Part shown: positions 13,425-22,839 of the stretch, one piece after another | Position numbering within the stretch: the first letter of the stretch is position 1 | Layout: every line of letters starts with the position of its first letter | Assembly (NCBI GenBank): GCA_028875185.1 | Contig: JAPPFH010000103.1 | Location: forward strand, 1 to 57,667 | DNA from: Chloroflexota bacterium | Lineage (GTDB): Bacteria > Chloroflexota > Anaerolineae > Aggregatilineales > Phototrophicaceae | Direction: 5' to 3' | Length of the DNA: 57,667 bases | Translations under genes and position numbers: made by a program | Notes under the pieces: generated by a model | Seen by the model: only the letters and a program-made list of their open reading frames with translations | What the model was told of the DNA's origin: nothing | The model's database searches: none

Positions 13425-14150
13425 GTGCCGCAGCGAATCATAGCGATGTGGTCGGGGCCGCGCAATATCTCAACGGCGATGATGCGCGCTTGGGAGAGCC
13501 GCGCCGATACGCGAGTCATCGATGAGCCGTTTTACGCGCACTACTTGGCGCGCACCGGGTATGATCATCCGGGTTCCGATGAGGTCATCCGCTGCGGCGA
13601 GACCGACTGGCGCGAGGTCGTCAGGGCTTTGGTTGCGAATGGCGGCGCGACGCCGATCTTCTTTCAAAAGCATATGTCGCAGCACATGCTGGCGCATATC
13701 GACAGAAGCTGGCTGGGACGGGTCGCCCACTGCTTTTTGATTCGCGATCCGCGCCGAATGCTGCTGTCGTTCGCCAAGGTCATTCCCAATCCGCGGCTTG
13801 ATCAGACGGGGCTGCCGCAGCAGGTGGAGATATTCAACACGGTTCGGGAGGCTAACGGAGCGGTTCCGCCGGTGATTGCGGCGAAGGATATCTTGCTGGC
13901 GCCGGAGCGAGCGCTGCGAAAGCTATGCGCAGCGCTGGATGTGCCTTTTGACCGGGCGATGCTTCGTTGGAAGGCGGGGCGGCGGGAGAGCGACGGCGTT
14001 TGGGCAAAGCACTGGTATGGCGCAGTTGAAAGGTCGACCGGCTTCGCGCCTTATGAAGAAGATGACAGCGCGTTGCCGGCGCGGATGAATGGCTTGCTGG
14101 AGGAATGCCTGAGTTTGTATGAGCAAATGGCGCGGCATCGTATTCGGTGA
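13425..14150 (+). CDS. Sulfotransferase-family protein
   Basis: A 241-residue protein starting at a GTG codon (PQRIIAMWSGPRNISTAM). The SGPRNIST loop near residues 11-18 fits the 5'-phosphosulfate-binding loop of PAPS-dependent sulfotransferases, and IRDPRRMLLSFAK fits the 3'-phosphate-binding segment. The nearest ATG is inside the first strand, so the GTG start is preferred. It lies 93 bases upstream of an aminotransferase-like gene on the same strand. From memory, this sulfotransferase subtype is repeatedly found next to or fused with branched-chain-aminotransferase-like domains. The substrate is unknown and the activity is inferred from fold motifs. Confidence 0.75.
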   Translation: MPQRIIAMWSGPRNISTAMMRAWESRADTRVIDEPFYAHYLARTGYDHPGSDEVIRCGETDWREVVRALVANGGATPIFFQKHMSQHMLAHIDRSWLGRVAHCFLIRDPRRMLLSFAKVIPNPRLDQTGLPQQVEIFNTVREANGAVPPVIAAKDILLAPERALRKLCAALDVPFDRAMLRWKAGRRESDGVWAKHWYGAVERSTGFAPYEEDDSALPARMNGLLEECLSLYEQMARHRIR

Positions 14151-14243: not shown

Positions 14244-15161
14244 ATGAAGCAGGAATTTAATCCGAAGAACAGCGATCTGCTAATCAATATCAATGGAAAG
14301 CTCTATCACCGCGATGTCGCCGGCATCAGTCCCTTTGATTCGGCAGTGCAAGGCGGCGATGCGGTTTGGGAAGGGCTGCGCCTGTATCAAGGGCGGATTT
14401 TCAAATTGATCCCGCACTTGGATCGTCTGCGCGATTCGGCTATGGCGATGGCTTTCAGCGAGATCCCGTCGCATGATGAGATCATTGCGGAGATCAGCAA
14501 GACGTTGATGGCGAATGAGATGACCGATGGCGCGCACATCCGCCTGACGCTCAGCCGCGGCGTCAAATATACCAGTGGCATGGATACGCGGCTTAATGCG
14601 CAGGGACCCACCTTGATTGTGCTGGCGGAACATAAGCCGCCGGTTTATGACAAGAGCGGCATTCGGCTCATCACCTCGAGCGTTCGGCGGATCCCGCCCG
14701 ATTGCGTCGATCAGAATATACATTCTTGCAATTTGATCAATTCGATTCTGGCCAAGATTCAAGCCAACGCCGCCGGCGCCGATGACGCGTTGATGCTCGA
14801 TTATCGGGGTTATGTTGCGGAGACGAATGCAACGCATGTCTTCATCGTGCAGGACGGCATGGCGCTGACGTCGGACACGGGTTCTTGCCCGGAGGGCATC
14901 ACGCGGGCGACTGTGCTCGAGATCTGCGAGGGCGCTGGCATCCCCTATCAGGTCAAGGACATTTCACTGAGCGAGGTTTATCGGGCTAATGAAATGTTTT
15001 GCACGGGCACGATGGGCGAGCTGGCGCCGGTGGTTGAGCTGGATGGTCGTCAGATTGGCGACGGCAAGGCGGGACCGATGACGCAGCGCTTGAGCGCGCT
15101 GTTCCGCGAACGCACGGAGCGTGAAGGTTATCGAGTGGTGGAATTGGCGACTTCGGGTTAG
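14244..15161 (+). CDS. Class IV aminotransferase homologue lacking the PLP lysine
   Basis: A 305-residue fold-type IV aminotransferase homologue (branched-chain or D-amino-acid aminotransferase family). Recognisable landmarks are DAVWEGLRLYQGRIFKL, ADDALMLDYRGYVAET and MFCTGTMGELAPV. The segment that normally holds the Schiff-base lysine (DIKSLNLL in D-amino-acid aminotransferase) reads NIHSCNLINSILAKI. The codon at 14721-14723 is CAT, giving His160, so standard PLP catalysis is unlikely. The reading frame is otherwise intact over the full family length, arguing for selection rather than decay. It pairs with the upstream sulfotransferase gene. Family is clear; function is unknown and may be non-transaminase or PLP-independent. 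Confidence 0.85.
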   Translation: MKQEFNPKNSDLLININGKLYHRDVAGISPFDSAVQGGDAVWEGLRLYQGRIFKLIPHLDRLRDSAMAMAFSEIPSHDEIIAEISKTLMANEMTDGAHIRLTLSRGVKYTSGMDTRLNAQGPTLIVLAEHKPPVYDKSGIRLITSSVRRIPPDCVDQNIHSCNLINSILAKIQANAAGADDALMLDYRGYVAETNATHVFIVQDGMALTSDTGSCPEGITRATVLEICEGAGIPYQVKDISLSEVYRANEMFCTGTMGELAPVVELDGRQIGDGKAGPMTQRLSALFRERTEREGYRVVELATSG

Positions 15162-15450: not shown

Positions 15451-17718
15451 ATGTCAGAGTTCTCATTTGTTGGCAAACCGACGCCGGTGATTGACGGTCC
15501 CGCCAAGGTGACGGGCAATTTGAAATATACTGGCGACCTCAAGCTGGCGGGCATGCTGCACGCGCGTTTTGTGTTGAGCGCTTTTGCGCACGCCAATATT
15601 ACCGGCGTTGACGCGAGCGCCGCGCTTGCGATACCCGGCGTTCAGCAGGTATTGACCGCCGATGATTTGCCCGATGTGACGCCTTCTTCACGCGCCCGCT
15701 TGATGCTCGCGCGAGGGCGCGTGATCTTTGTCGGGCAGCCGATCGCCATCGTCCTGGCGGATACGGCGGCGGCGGCCGCGGATGGCGCCGAGTTGGTTGC
15801 GGTGGATTACGATCCCTTGGACGCGGTGACATCCATGGATGACGCTGTGGCGGAGGGGGCGAATATTGTTTGGCCCAACGGCATCCCGACCGGCGCTGGC
15901 GATGAAGCGGCGCATGGCGCCGATACGGGCGGTGAATCGGAAGGCGATGAAGAAGAAATCTCGAATATCGCGGGCTCAACCAAGATGGAAACGGGCAATA
16001 TCGATGCCGCGTTTGCCGAAGCCGAAGTGGTCGTCGAGCGCAGTTTTGATACGCCGATGGTGCATCAGAGTTCGATCGAAACGCAAGGCTGGGTGGCGCA
16101 GCCTAATCCGCTGAATGGCGGCTTGACAATGTGGGGCAGCATTCAGTCGCCCTTCGGCGTGCGTTACGATGTCGCCGATGTGTTGGGTGTGCCGGAATCG
16201 GATGTGACAGTCTACGGCATGCCGGTCGGAGGCGCGTTCGGCGCCAAGTTCGGATTGTACGAGCCGCTAGTGGGCTTGGTCGCCGCAACCGTCGGTCGGC
16301 CGGTCAGCTTGATTTTGACGCGCGGCGAAGAATTGCTGAGCACCAACCCGGCGCCGGCGCTGCGTATCCGCGGCAAGCTGGGATTTAAAAGTGATGGCAG
16401 GCTGATCGCTATGCAGTCGGATGTGACGGCGGACACGGGTGTTTATCCGAGCGGGCTTGGCGGGTTCGCGGCGATGCAGTTCGCCAGTTTTTATCGCTGC
16501 GAGAACTTGCGCCTGGAATCGACCAATGTCGTCACGAACAAGCAGTCGGTTGGCGCTTATCGCGCGCCGACATCACCGACCGCGTTCATGGCGGTGGAGA
16601 CCTTGTTCGATGAAGCGGCGGCGCAGTTGGGCATGGATCCGGTGGAATTACGCTTGATGAACGCGGCGCGCACAGGGGATCCGGCGCCCGATGGCGAGGA
16701 TTTTCCCGTTATCGGAATGGTGGAAACGCTGGAAGCGGCGCAAGAACATCCGCTTTGGAAGAACCGTGACGATTCGCGGGCGAAGGGCCGCGGCGTCGGC
16801 ATTGCCATCGGCGGCTGGATGGGTGGCTTGGAACCGGGCGCGTCGGTCTGCAAGCTGAATCGCGATGGTGTATTGCAGGTGCAGATCGGCACGGCGGATT
16901 TATCGGGCACGCCGACATCGTTCGCGCAGCTGGCGGCCGAGGCTTATGGCGTTGATGTGGACAAGGTGCGCTTCGTCTACAGCGATACCGACAGCGCGCC
17001 ATATGGCGGCGGCGTCGGCGGCAGCAAAACGCTCTATACGCTGGGCAACGCTGTGATCCGCGCGGCGGAAGACGCTAGGCGGCAGACGCTGGCCATCGCG
17101 GCTGAGGAGTTCGAGGTATCGGCTGAAGACCTGGAAATCGTCGATGGGCGGGTGCAGGTGCGGGGCTTCCCCGATCGCTCGGTGGCATTGGGCGACCTGG
17201 CTGGCAAGGCGATGACATTCGGCGGAAAATACGATCCGATTCATGGCAGCGGCAGCCAGTCAGTGACCGATCGGGCGCCTTCATTCTGCGCGCAAATCGC
17301 CGAGGTCGCGGTTGATGAAGAGACGGGCGAGGTTGACCTGCTGAATCTGGCGGTGGTGCAGGAAGTTGGGCGGGCGATCAATCCAATGACGGTGGAGGGT
17401 CAGATGCAGGGCGGCGCGGTACAGGGCGTCGGCTGGGCGCTGTATGAAGAGATGCGCTATGACGATGACGGTCAGTTGCTTTCCGGCTCTTGGATGGATT
17501 ATGCGATGCCCGATGCGGTGCAAGCGTCGCCGATTCAGACGCAGATCGTTGAAGTGCCTTCGATCAGCGGGCCCTTCGGCGCGCGTGGCGTCGGCGAGCC
17601 GCCGGTGATTCCGACGGTGGCGGCGATTGCCAATGCGGTGGCGCATGCGACGGGTGTTCGCATGACGCAGACGCCGATGACGGCGCCACGAGTGTTGGAG
17701 GCTTTGCAAGGACGCTAG
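15451..17718 (+). CDS. Xanthine dehydrogenase-family molybdopterin-binding large subunit
   Basis: A 755-residue large subunit of the molybdenum hydroxylase family (xanthine dehydrogenase, aldehyde oxidase). The N-terminal a/b hammerhead begins VIDGPAKVTGNLKYTGDLKL. The molybdopterin domains include GGAFGAKFG and the C-terminal GARGVGEPP (near 710), whose Glu is the catalytic base. The active-site loop reads GAYRAPTSP (near 368), not the AYRCSFR type of aerobic CO dehydrogenase, so CoxL is excluded. An unusual acidic insert lies near residues 145-175 (ESEGDEEEIS). A strong AAAGGAG ribosome-binding site precedes the ATG. The FAD and 2Fe-2S subunits normally encoded alongside are absent, so it is an orphan here. 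Confidence 0.87.
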   Translation: MSEFSFVGKPTPVIDGPAKVTGNLKYTGDLKLAGMLHARFVLSAFAHANITGVDASAALAIPGVQQVLTADDLPDVTPSSRARLMLARGRVIFVGQPIAIVLADTAAAAADGAELVAVDYDPLDAVTSMDDAVAEGANIVWPNGIPTGAGDEAAHGADTGGESEGDEEEISNIAGSTKMETGNIDAAFAEAEVVVERSFDTPMVHQSSIETQGWVAQPNPLNGGLTMWGSIQSPFGVRYDVADVLGVPESDVTVYGMPVGGAFGAKFGLYEPLVGLVAATVGRPVSLILTRGEELLSTNPAPALRIRGKLGFKSDGRLIAMQSDVTADTGVYPSGLGGFAAMQFASFYRCENLRLESTNVVTNKQSVGAYRAPTSPTAFMAVETLFDEAAAQLGMDPVELRLMNAARTGDPAPDGEDFPVIGMVETLEAAQEHPLWKNRDDSRAKGRGVGIAIGGWMGGLEPGASVCKLNRDGVLQVQIGTADLSGTPTSFAQLAAEAYGVDVDKVRFVYSDTDSAPYGGGVGGSKTLYTLGNAVIRAAEDARRQTLAIAAEEFEVSAEDLEIVDGRVQVRGFPDRSVALGDLAGKAMTFGGKYDPIHGSGSQSVTDRAPSFCAQIAEVAVDEETGEVDLLNLAVVQEVGRAINPMTVEGQMQGGAVQGVGWALYEEMRYDDDGQLLSGSWMDYAMPDAVQASPIQTQIVEVPSISGPFGARGVGEPPVIPTVAAIANAVAHATGVRMTQTPMTAPRVLEALQGR

Positions 17719-21867: not shown

Positions 21868-22839
21868 TTAGCGCTCCTTCAGTATGCCCATCCGCGCCGC
21901 AATATCGCGCAGAATCGCAACATCGCTCGCCGGGCGAGTCGGCGACGCGCTGTGTGTACGGTCTGAATTTATCCAACCACGCAGCTTGAGAAATTGGGCG
22001 GCTGAATGCTTGTAGGCCGGCACCGGCGGCCGAAATGCGAGAAACCCCAGATATTGAATGATGTCATTCAATTCGTAGAAGCCGGGATCCCCCGCCAGCC
22101 ACATGGCGTCGCGTTCGGCGAAGAGATCGGGCGCAAACGTGCTCAAGCCGAGCAAGTAATCGCTGCCGTAAATGACCATGTCAATCGCCAGGTCGTTGCC
22201 GGTGAAGACCTTAAAATCCGGGCGCGCGGCATCGCGCAGCGCGATCCGCTCCCATTCCAGTTGCCGATTGAGCGACGAATGCTTCGCGCCGATGCAACTG
22301 GCGATGCCCAGCAGTCCGCGATAGGTATCGAGATCGTAAATCGCGCCAAATGGGGCAAACATCTCCCCCAATTCAAAGGCGATGAAATTGTCGGTCTTCT
22401 CCCCGATAGTCTCATACGACCTTACGATTTCCGTCCCGCCTTGCTGTGTCAAGCCATAGGACTGAAAGATGATCGGCGCGCCACCCTGGCTTTGAATACT
22501 GTCAACCTGGCGGAAGTAAGCATCAGCAGCGAAAGGAGCGCCTGGTTCGTCCGAAACGAACGCGCCGGCGACAAAGTTGCCGCCAGCGAGCGCGCAGCGC
22601 GTCGCTCTTAATACCTTCCGCCGATTTTCCTCGCTGATCAAGTTGGCGAAGCCGGTGTCCATATTGACCGCCGGCGTCAAACCCGCCTCAGCCGTGCGCC
22701 GCACATGATCCGCCAGCCCGGGCCAGTCAATGTCGCCGTTCTCTCTAAAGGGCAGCAGAATCGCCGAGATGCCCGTAATCTTGCGCTTGGGTCGGATCAT
22801 CGCGGTCGGGTTGATCTTTGACAGCGCTTCCCGATTCAT
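21868..22839 (-). CDS. Dihydrodipicolinate synthase-family lyase/aldolase
   Basis: A 323-residue DapA/NAL-superfamily TIM barrel. The N-terminal [20 protein letters not shown] is characteristic, and [15 protein letters not shown] probably contains the Schiff-base lysine. Housekeeping DapA proteins are shorter (about 290) and carry different active-site signatures, so this is more likely a catabolic aldolase or hydratase for a 2-keto acid. It lies between the interrupted PhyH gene (88 bases upstream) and the OYE gene (3 bases downstream) on the same strand. Confidence 0.8.

Follow-up and report, generated by a model that had tools for sequence, protein, structure and literature searches.

A histidine in place of the lysine that normally forms the Schiff base with pyridoxal 5'-phosphate (PLP) was found in a class IV aminotransferase homologue encoded on contig JAPPFH010000103.1 of a Chloroflexota bacterium (assembly GCA_028875185.1), the whole analysed stretch of 57,667 nucleotides being hereafter called the window, and this protein and its His-type relatives are accompanied, almost without exception, by a sulfotransferase of the PF19798 (Sulfotransfer_5) family, encoded in the window by the preceding gene. 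The reading that we prefer, tentatively and at just under an even chance, is that the homologue is a lysine-free enzyme of PLP or pyridoxamine 5'-phosphate (PMP), with His160 as acid/base, which would serve one pathway with a sulfotransferase using 3'-phosphoadenosine 5'-phosphosulfate (PAPS) and would have an acidic amino or keto acid as its substrate. The histidine had been pointed out in an initial annotation of the window, in which the sulfotransferase partner is not mentioned.

Translation of the open reading frame 14244-15161 confirmed the first statement of the initial annotation, that a full-length gene carries His (codon CAT) at the PLP-lysine position, the segment around this column being NIHSCNLINSILAKI. 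Lysine K160 of Escherichia coli IlvE (translated from the MG1655 genome) aligns with His160, and so does the lysine of the archaeal branched-chain amino acid aminotransferase (BCAT) 5mqz. The protein scores 138.6 bits with Pfam Aminotran_4, against a gathering cut-off of 28.5, and matches the fold of BCAT and D-amino-acid aminotransferase, which places it in fold type IV; the Schiff-base lysine of that fold type is absent and, therefore, the protein is not classed here as an aminotransferase. Confusion with a paralogue was considered and ruled out, as the window's genome proved to have three further Aminotran_4 genes, each with Lys at the column. The D-amino-acid aminotransferase, taken as the reference in the initial annotation, proved not to be the nearest relative, for the BCAT-type models score higher in NCBIfam (each NCBIfam match lying below its own cut-off) and the structure 7z79 together with BCAT structures heads the lists of matches in the PDB. 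The AlphaFold2 (AF2) model, built with 33 sequences (pLDDT 83.0, pTM 0.81), was matched by Foldseek to structures that, among the 50 matches listed, are all of the aminotransferase fold (TM 0.76-0.85 by query, probability 1.00). The closest PDB match both by sequence and by fold is 7z79, and its N174K variant, 9j32, stands near the top too; lysine-free proteins of fold type IV are thus already known to crystallographers. The fold combined with the loss of the lysine is known from 7z79, and what appears to be new, as far as the open-access literature goes, is a His group with an intact cofactor site and a sulfotransferase partner.

The relatives studied in detail were the best 80 of 338, and the residue counts refer to the fetched loci, the window included, as a part of all those existing. 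The column was read by tblastn, with distinctness judged on a 150-residue stretch, and of the distinct sequences, 119 have His there, 13 have Asn and 89 have Lys; three more rows read as S or I by tblastn have Lys in the multiple alignment. The partial locus L210, which stops short of the column, and second-copy matches at 36-39% identity were left out of the reading. The His rows have at least 55% identity to the window, and every non-His row lies below 45%. One of the six peptide patterns used to gather relatives contained the His; the whole-protein searches, which did not require it, returned His in each column-reaching match at 54% identity or more, and 58 extra matches read at the column (53 weak aminotransferase matches and five others) gave 53 Lys and 5 His. 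The column stays His from Chloroflexota to Planctomycetota, and both His codons are in use among the 80 relatives (CAT 41, CAC 39). The ratio of nonsynonymous to synonymous substitution rates (dN/dS) between the window and its relatives could be obtained for 7 of the 9 pairs chosen, in which it was 0.049-0.088; two pairs yielded no value. On these alignments, His160 is constant and the homologue stands under purifying selection, which bears out the earlier claim of a selected, non-classical family member; the homologue comparison that the initial annotation proposed gave no close fetched homologue with Lys, so that His160 is not a local mutation. A decaying gene or a sequencing error, for which no support was found, has accordingly been rejected on the constant His, the low dN/dS and the use of both His codons, and is left with practically no probability.

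A tree of 72 sequences (35 His, 13 Asn, 24 Lys), comprising 70 of 141 distinct sequences and the corresponding stretches of 7z79 and 5mqz, was drawn with a midpoint root and with the lysine column included, some Lys rows having long branches. Every residue state lies on one side of a branch, with support of 100/99 for His, 100/99 for Asn and 100/96 for Lys, and the residue changes at the column number two, the minimum possible. The His and Asn groups adjoin (100/96) but remain separate, 7z79 falling in the Asn group, and a single loss of Lys can account for both groups on this topology. The Chloroflexota His sequences (L005, which is the window, and L026, L031, L043, L045, L046, L051, L062 and L066) are nested within those of Planctomycetota, which suggests that the gene pair has moved between the phyla.

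Residue by residue, the cofactor site was compared in 35 His, 13 Asn and 25 Lys rows, with a wider check on the 119 distinct His sequences. The IlvE residues R60, G220, T222, T258 and E194 correspond to R61, G218, T220, T256 and E193, which do not vary in the 35 His sequences, and R61, R100, K108, K131, E193, T220 and T256 are identical in all 119; the tyrosine 165 of BCAT is replaced by Leu in 32 of the 35 His rows. The position of Glu193, the residue facing N1 of the cofactor, is occupied by Ser (8/13) or Thr (5/13) in the Asn group. The excerpts available of PMC12429042 assign the conserved Glu to the N1 network and term the protonation of N1 essential for catalysis; the retention of this Glu is the ground on which cofactor chemistry is argued here over mere ligand binding. 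The initial annotation had named a PLP enzyme, a PLP sensor and a ligand-binding protein as options, and the sequence fits all three, the kept Glu favouring real PLP chemistry for the His-type protein. For the substrate, an Arg and a GT turn make up the alpha-carboxylate site of BCAT in the excerpted text of PMC8320979; an alpha-amino or alpha-keto acid with an acidic side chain would suit Arg46, the GTMG turn and Arg100, together with Lys108, Lys131 and His98. In Lys types the last three residues are the exception, while the His group and almost the entire Asn group share them.

The extra lysines raise the question of a relocated catalytic residue. The initial annotation had counted a lysine elsewhere in an equivalent spatial place as contrary to its reading, and Lys131 is a candidate for such a residue. 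Lys131, invariant in the distinct His sequences and present in 12 of the 13 Asn ones, aligns with W127 of IlvE in the active-site interdomain loop (residues 125-136 in E. coli BCAT, a numbering that apparently omits the first Met, in the excerpt of PMC8320979), and, had it become the Schiff-base lysine, the protein would be a PLP enzyme of a rather usual kind whose catalytic residue has shifted. We consider this improbable. At least eight Lys-type relatives (L262, L265, L307, L322, L331, L332, L333 and L335) carry Lys at both columns in pairwise alignment, by which Lys131 need not be a replacement of Lys160; the occurrence of Lys131 and Lys108 in some Lys types has, therefore, lowered the weight given to relocation. 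The depositors of the Asn relative, moreover, made the N174K variant 9j32, on which no paper was found.

The pairing with the sulfotransferase was assessed in three genome samples, with expectation limits for the aminotransferase homologue (AT) of 1e-35 in Chloroflexota and of 1e-40 in Planctomycetota and in the phylum of G381, an Acidobacteria-labelled genome, and of 1e-20 for the sulfotransferase. In 199 genomes of Planctomycetota (the phylum of G380), an AT match was found in 79, namely 27 with His, G500 with a fragment (114 residues, 74% identity, ending before the column), G435 with Asn and 50 with Lys only, and the sulfotransferase was found in 29, which are precisely the 27 His genomes, G500 and G435. 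In the window's own phylum (301 genomes), there were 26 genomes with an AT match (His 2, Asn 6, Lys only 18) and four with the sulfotransferase, both His genomes and two of Asn type. The third phylum (199 genomes) gave an AT match in 28 (His 14, Asn 1, Lys only 13) and the sulfotransferase in 14, that is, in 13 His genomes and in the Asn genome, G733 being the exception. When pooled, the sulfotransferase occurs in 47 of 699 genomes, all 47 having a lysine-free AT (46 by reading of the column and G500 by similarity), and it is present in 42/43 column-read His genomes, 4/8 Asn genomes and 0/81 Lys-only genomes. The Fisher p value of the pooled table, 7e-68, is descriptive and not a test of independent events, because the sampled genomes share ancestry. 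PF19798 was absent from all 14 named control genomes.

The same picture came from gene order in the best 80 relatives. A homologue of the first gene lies inside the locus in 61 of the 80, always upstream and on the same strand, and 4-39 bases separate the matched parts of the two genes in 48 loci. The cultured planctomycete Tautonia sociabilis (L078) has an adjacent pair. For the 19 loci without an adjoining sulfotransferase, 18 of the genomes have exactly one copy, on a different contig, G374 being the exception; in its locus (L110) the sequence before the AT is just 263 bases long, and the missing sulfotransferase may therefore be an assembly gap. In the four sampled Asn genomes that have the sulfotransferase, the gene immediately follows the AT, whereas in the His-type pairs it precedes it, and the pairing has thus outlasted rearrangement. 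No third conserved partner was found around the AT in the divergent loci among the 80, where the clusters of long frames include antisense shadows, nor around the sulfotransferase where it stands on a separate contig, in 19 of 20 regions (L165 left out) with a crude picking of frames, 12 loci being represented in the clusters by the sulfotransferase frame itself and 6 by its antisense shadow. Across the genomes compared, then, the two genes co-occur near-strictly and are mostly adjacent.

This association bears on two further readings. The AT homologue could be a non-catalytic partner, a subunit that would regulate or scaffold the sulfotransferase and have PLP, PMP or an amino acid as its ligand; the loss of the Schiff-base lysine, the near-strict co-occurrence and the motifs of the sulfotransferase, which are presumably those of its active site and could make it the sole catalyst, speak in its favour. 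We hold it to be rather unlikely, as the carboxylate site and the entire cofactor site with its N1 Glu are kept, beyond the needs of a scaffold, and the sulfotransferase is missing in half of the sampled Asn-type genomes. The other reading is that of a protein that stores or senses PLP or PMP and has no dedicated chemistry, with the sulfotransferase as a mere genomic fellow traveller. It would account for cofactor residues retained without the lysine, and it is made highly improbable by the lysine-free AT in every sampled genome with the sulfotransferase, many of them having the two genes on separate contigs, and by the adjoining of the Asn-type pairs despite their reversed order.

The partner itself scores 174 bits with PF19798 against a cut-off of 23.2, and its AF2 model was built with 29 sequences (pLDDT 93.7). 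The best 16 Foldseek matches in the PDB by E-value are all sulfotransferases, led by CurM (4gbm) and tyrosylprotein sulfotransferases (TPST), with modest TM values of 0.40-0.57, and from rank 17 on P-loop kinases are mixed with further sulfotransferases; the identity of the partner to the sulfotransferases in this list is 8-18%. A sequence search of the PDB with the partner gave no significant chain, CurM being the best at E 0.19. An SGPR..ST motif near the N terminus, a DEP motif and R107-x7-S115 do not vary in the 29 sulfotransferase sequences; the first and the third fit what we take to be the 5' and 3' phosphosulfate motifs of TPST and SULT, and DEP fits the presumed catalytic Glu of TPST. 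The window's genome encodes an adenosine 5'-phosphosulfate (APS) kinase (202.5 bits) and, therefore, PAPS is probably made by the organism. In the accessible parts of the literature, PF19798 was used as a search model or merely listed.

For the preferred lysine-free enzyme, the following course may be proposed. The fold type IV protein with His for the Schiff-base lysine would keep PLP or PMP non-covalently. Its substrate, an alpha-amino or alpha-keto acid of acidic type, would be bound by Arg46 and Arg100, possibly with the help of Lys108 and Lys131, and would form the external aldimine or ketimine directly. His160 would act as the acid/base, by analogy with the Lys to His change of ColD, E1 and SpnQ. 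The PAPS-dependent sulfotransferase, in a shared pathway, would act either afterwards, sulfonating the product, or beforehand, supplying a sulfated substrate with sulfate as the leaving group. We infer cofactor binding, the acid/base role of His, the substrate class, the use of PAPS and the order of steps.

Several points weigh against this proposal. The cofactor binding and activity of the AT homologue are predicted from sequence, ColD, on which the role of His is modelled, is of another fold type, and Lys131 might stand in for the missing lysine. The sister Asn group is without the N1 Glu too, by which the ordinary PLP chemistry is dispensable in lysine-free relatives, and four of its eight sampled genomes are without the sulfotransferase. 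Some Lys types, a minority, have Lys108 and Lys131 as well, so that these are not peculiar to the His group. The AF2 model of the AT homologue has low confidence over residues 32-37 and 108-117. The shared ancestry of the genomes makes the co-occurrence counts non-independent, and no sulfotransferase match was found in G733, of His type, or in the targeted genome G374, for which missing sequence is a possible cause.

A more specific version, a distinctly improbable one, is that the two enzymes form a sulfonation unit. Starting with an amino or keto acid activated by a hydroxyl group or in some other way, the His-type protein would generate an enamine by lysine-free PMP- or PLP-dependent elimination, much as in the enamine release by ColD, and this carbon nucleophile would be trapped by the sulfotransferase with PAPS to give a C-sulfonate, for example cysteate; alternatively, the sulfotransferase would first form a sulfate ester, with elimination by the PLP enzyme to follow. 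An orphan PAPS:2-aminoacrylate C-sulfotransferase activity belongs to taurine biosynthesis, and no open-access paper was found under that name; were the sulfonation unit true, the pair would provide genes for this activity.

Table 1. Positions in the window of the two paired genes and of the codons discussed for the aminotransferase homologue (H, N and K rows: sequences with His, Asn and Lys at the lysine column; cited roles as given in excerpts of the papers)
Feature	Position	Strand	Details and basis
PF19798 (Sulfotransfer_5) sulfotransferase, first gene of the pair	13425..14150	+	GTG start, 241 aa; Pfam, AF2/Foldseek, motifs
Lys-free class IV aminotransferase homologue	14244..15161	+	ATG start, 305 aa; Pfam Aminotran_4, AF2 model, dN/dS
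Arg46 = IlvE R41, alpha-carboxylate site	14379..14381	+	35/35 H, 13/13 N rows; role, PMC8320979
Arg61 = IlvE R60, PLP phosphate	14424..14426	+	35/35 H, 13/13 N, 25/25 K rows; role, PMC9309667
Arg100 = IlvE R98, side-chain carboxylate	14541..14543	+	alignment; role, PMC9309667
Lys108, O-pocket loop by alignment	14565..14567	+	119/119 distinct H; 12/13 N (other Arg)
Lys131 at IlvE W127, interdomain loop; candidate substrate-binding or relocated lysine	14634..14636	+	119/119 H; 12/13 N (other Ser)
His160, codon CAT, Schiff-base lysine column (IlvE K160)	14721..14723	+	translation and alignments
Glu193 = IlvE E194, PLP N1	14820..14822	+	Glu in 119/119 distinct His sequences
Thr220 = IlvE T222, PLP phosphate	14901..14903	+	alignment; role, PMC9309667
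Thr256 = IlvE T258, GTMG turn	15009..15011	+	matches the BCAT alpha-carboxylate turn GTAA; role, PMC8320979

Some neighbouring and plasmid-borne genes were observed besides. The pair is followed in the window by a molybdopterin-binding gene of the xanthine dehydrogenase large-subunit type (15451-17718), whose family is found in the flank of 31 of the 80 best relatives and in none of the divergent ones, and which thus looks like a genus-level neighbour outside the unit. Farther on, at 21868-22839, there is a weak DUF993 match (25.9 bits, cut-off 24) adjoining a gene for an FMN oxidoreductase. Asn-type relatives occur on plasmids of Paracoccus, Agrobacterium and Pantoea (L140, L143 and L145), beside amino acid ABC transporter genes and, in two of the three loci, MmgE/PrpD, no PF19798 match being among those listed for these plasmids. 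A Lys-type relative on an Alkalihalophilus plasmid (L144:5001-5888) has one internal stop in the matched stretch, is not in the (incomplete) PLSDB gene table and is followed downstream by ilvB, an ACT-domain gene, the gene of ketol-acid reductoisomerase and ilvD. A Dolichospermum plasmid carries, near cysC, a distant homologue of the sulfotransferase (L232:4995-5780, 32% identity), with no aminotransferase annotated in the 10.8 kb shown.

Enzymes of PLP are usually recognised by the Schiff-base lysine, and a conserved His group of fold type IV, with the rest of the cofactor site in place, would add a further fold with His for Lys and so offer a natural test of the purpose of the lysine. The plasmid records examined label the neighbouring Asn-type proteins as aminotransferases, an annotation that is probably wrong for the lysine-free members. 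The near-perfect pairing also gives a genetic handle on an uncharacterised sulfur reaction in Planctomycetota, Chloroflexota and the third, Acidobacteria-labelled phylum.

As compared with the known systems, the partner is a PF19798 member with a model like CurM and TPST, but it is paired with a protein of PLP fold. Plant chloroplast proteins, At3g05190 and At5g27410, are presumably fusions of sulfotransferase-like and aminotransferase-like parts, although no open-access literature was found for these loci; neither was any publication on the His group, the pair or 7z79 found in the open-access literature, most subscription journals being outside this scope. The aminotransferase-like protein 7z79 of Variovorax paradoxus is likewise without the Schiff-base lysine and has the equivalents of Trp42, His98, Lys108 and Lys131, whereas it differs from the window protein by Asn for His, Ser for the N1 Glu and a separate tree group; the four sampled Chloroflexota genomes with the Asn type nearest to it are without the sulfotransferase. 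With the BCATs (5mqz of Archaeoglobus and IlvE of E. coli), the window protein has in common the fold, the PLP phosphate residues, the N1 Glu, the alpha-carboxylate Arg and the GT turn, and it differs from them by His for the Schiff-base lysine and by extra basic residues in the substrate region. The sugar 3-dehydratases ColD, E1 and SpnQ are of fold type I, another fold type, and the parallel with them is therefore by analogy only: they act on sugar nucleotides, whereas the window protein has no fold type I scaffold, its Pfam and listed Foldseek matches being of fold type IV. What they share with it, in the excerpts available of PMC8987622, where they are termed homologues of ASATs, is a change of the active-site Lys to His in an aminotransferase-derived enzyme, the cofactor there being PMP and the His an acid/base that takes a proton from the cofactor while the hydroxyl leaves, with an enamine released by ColD.
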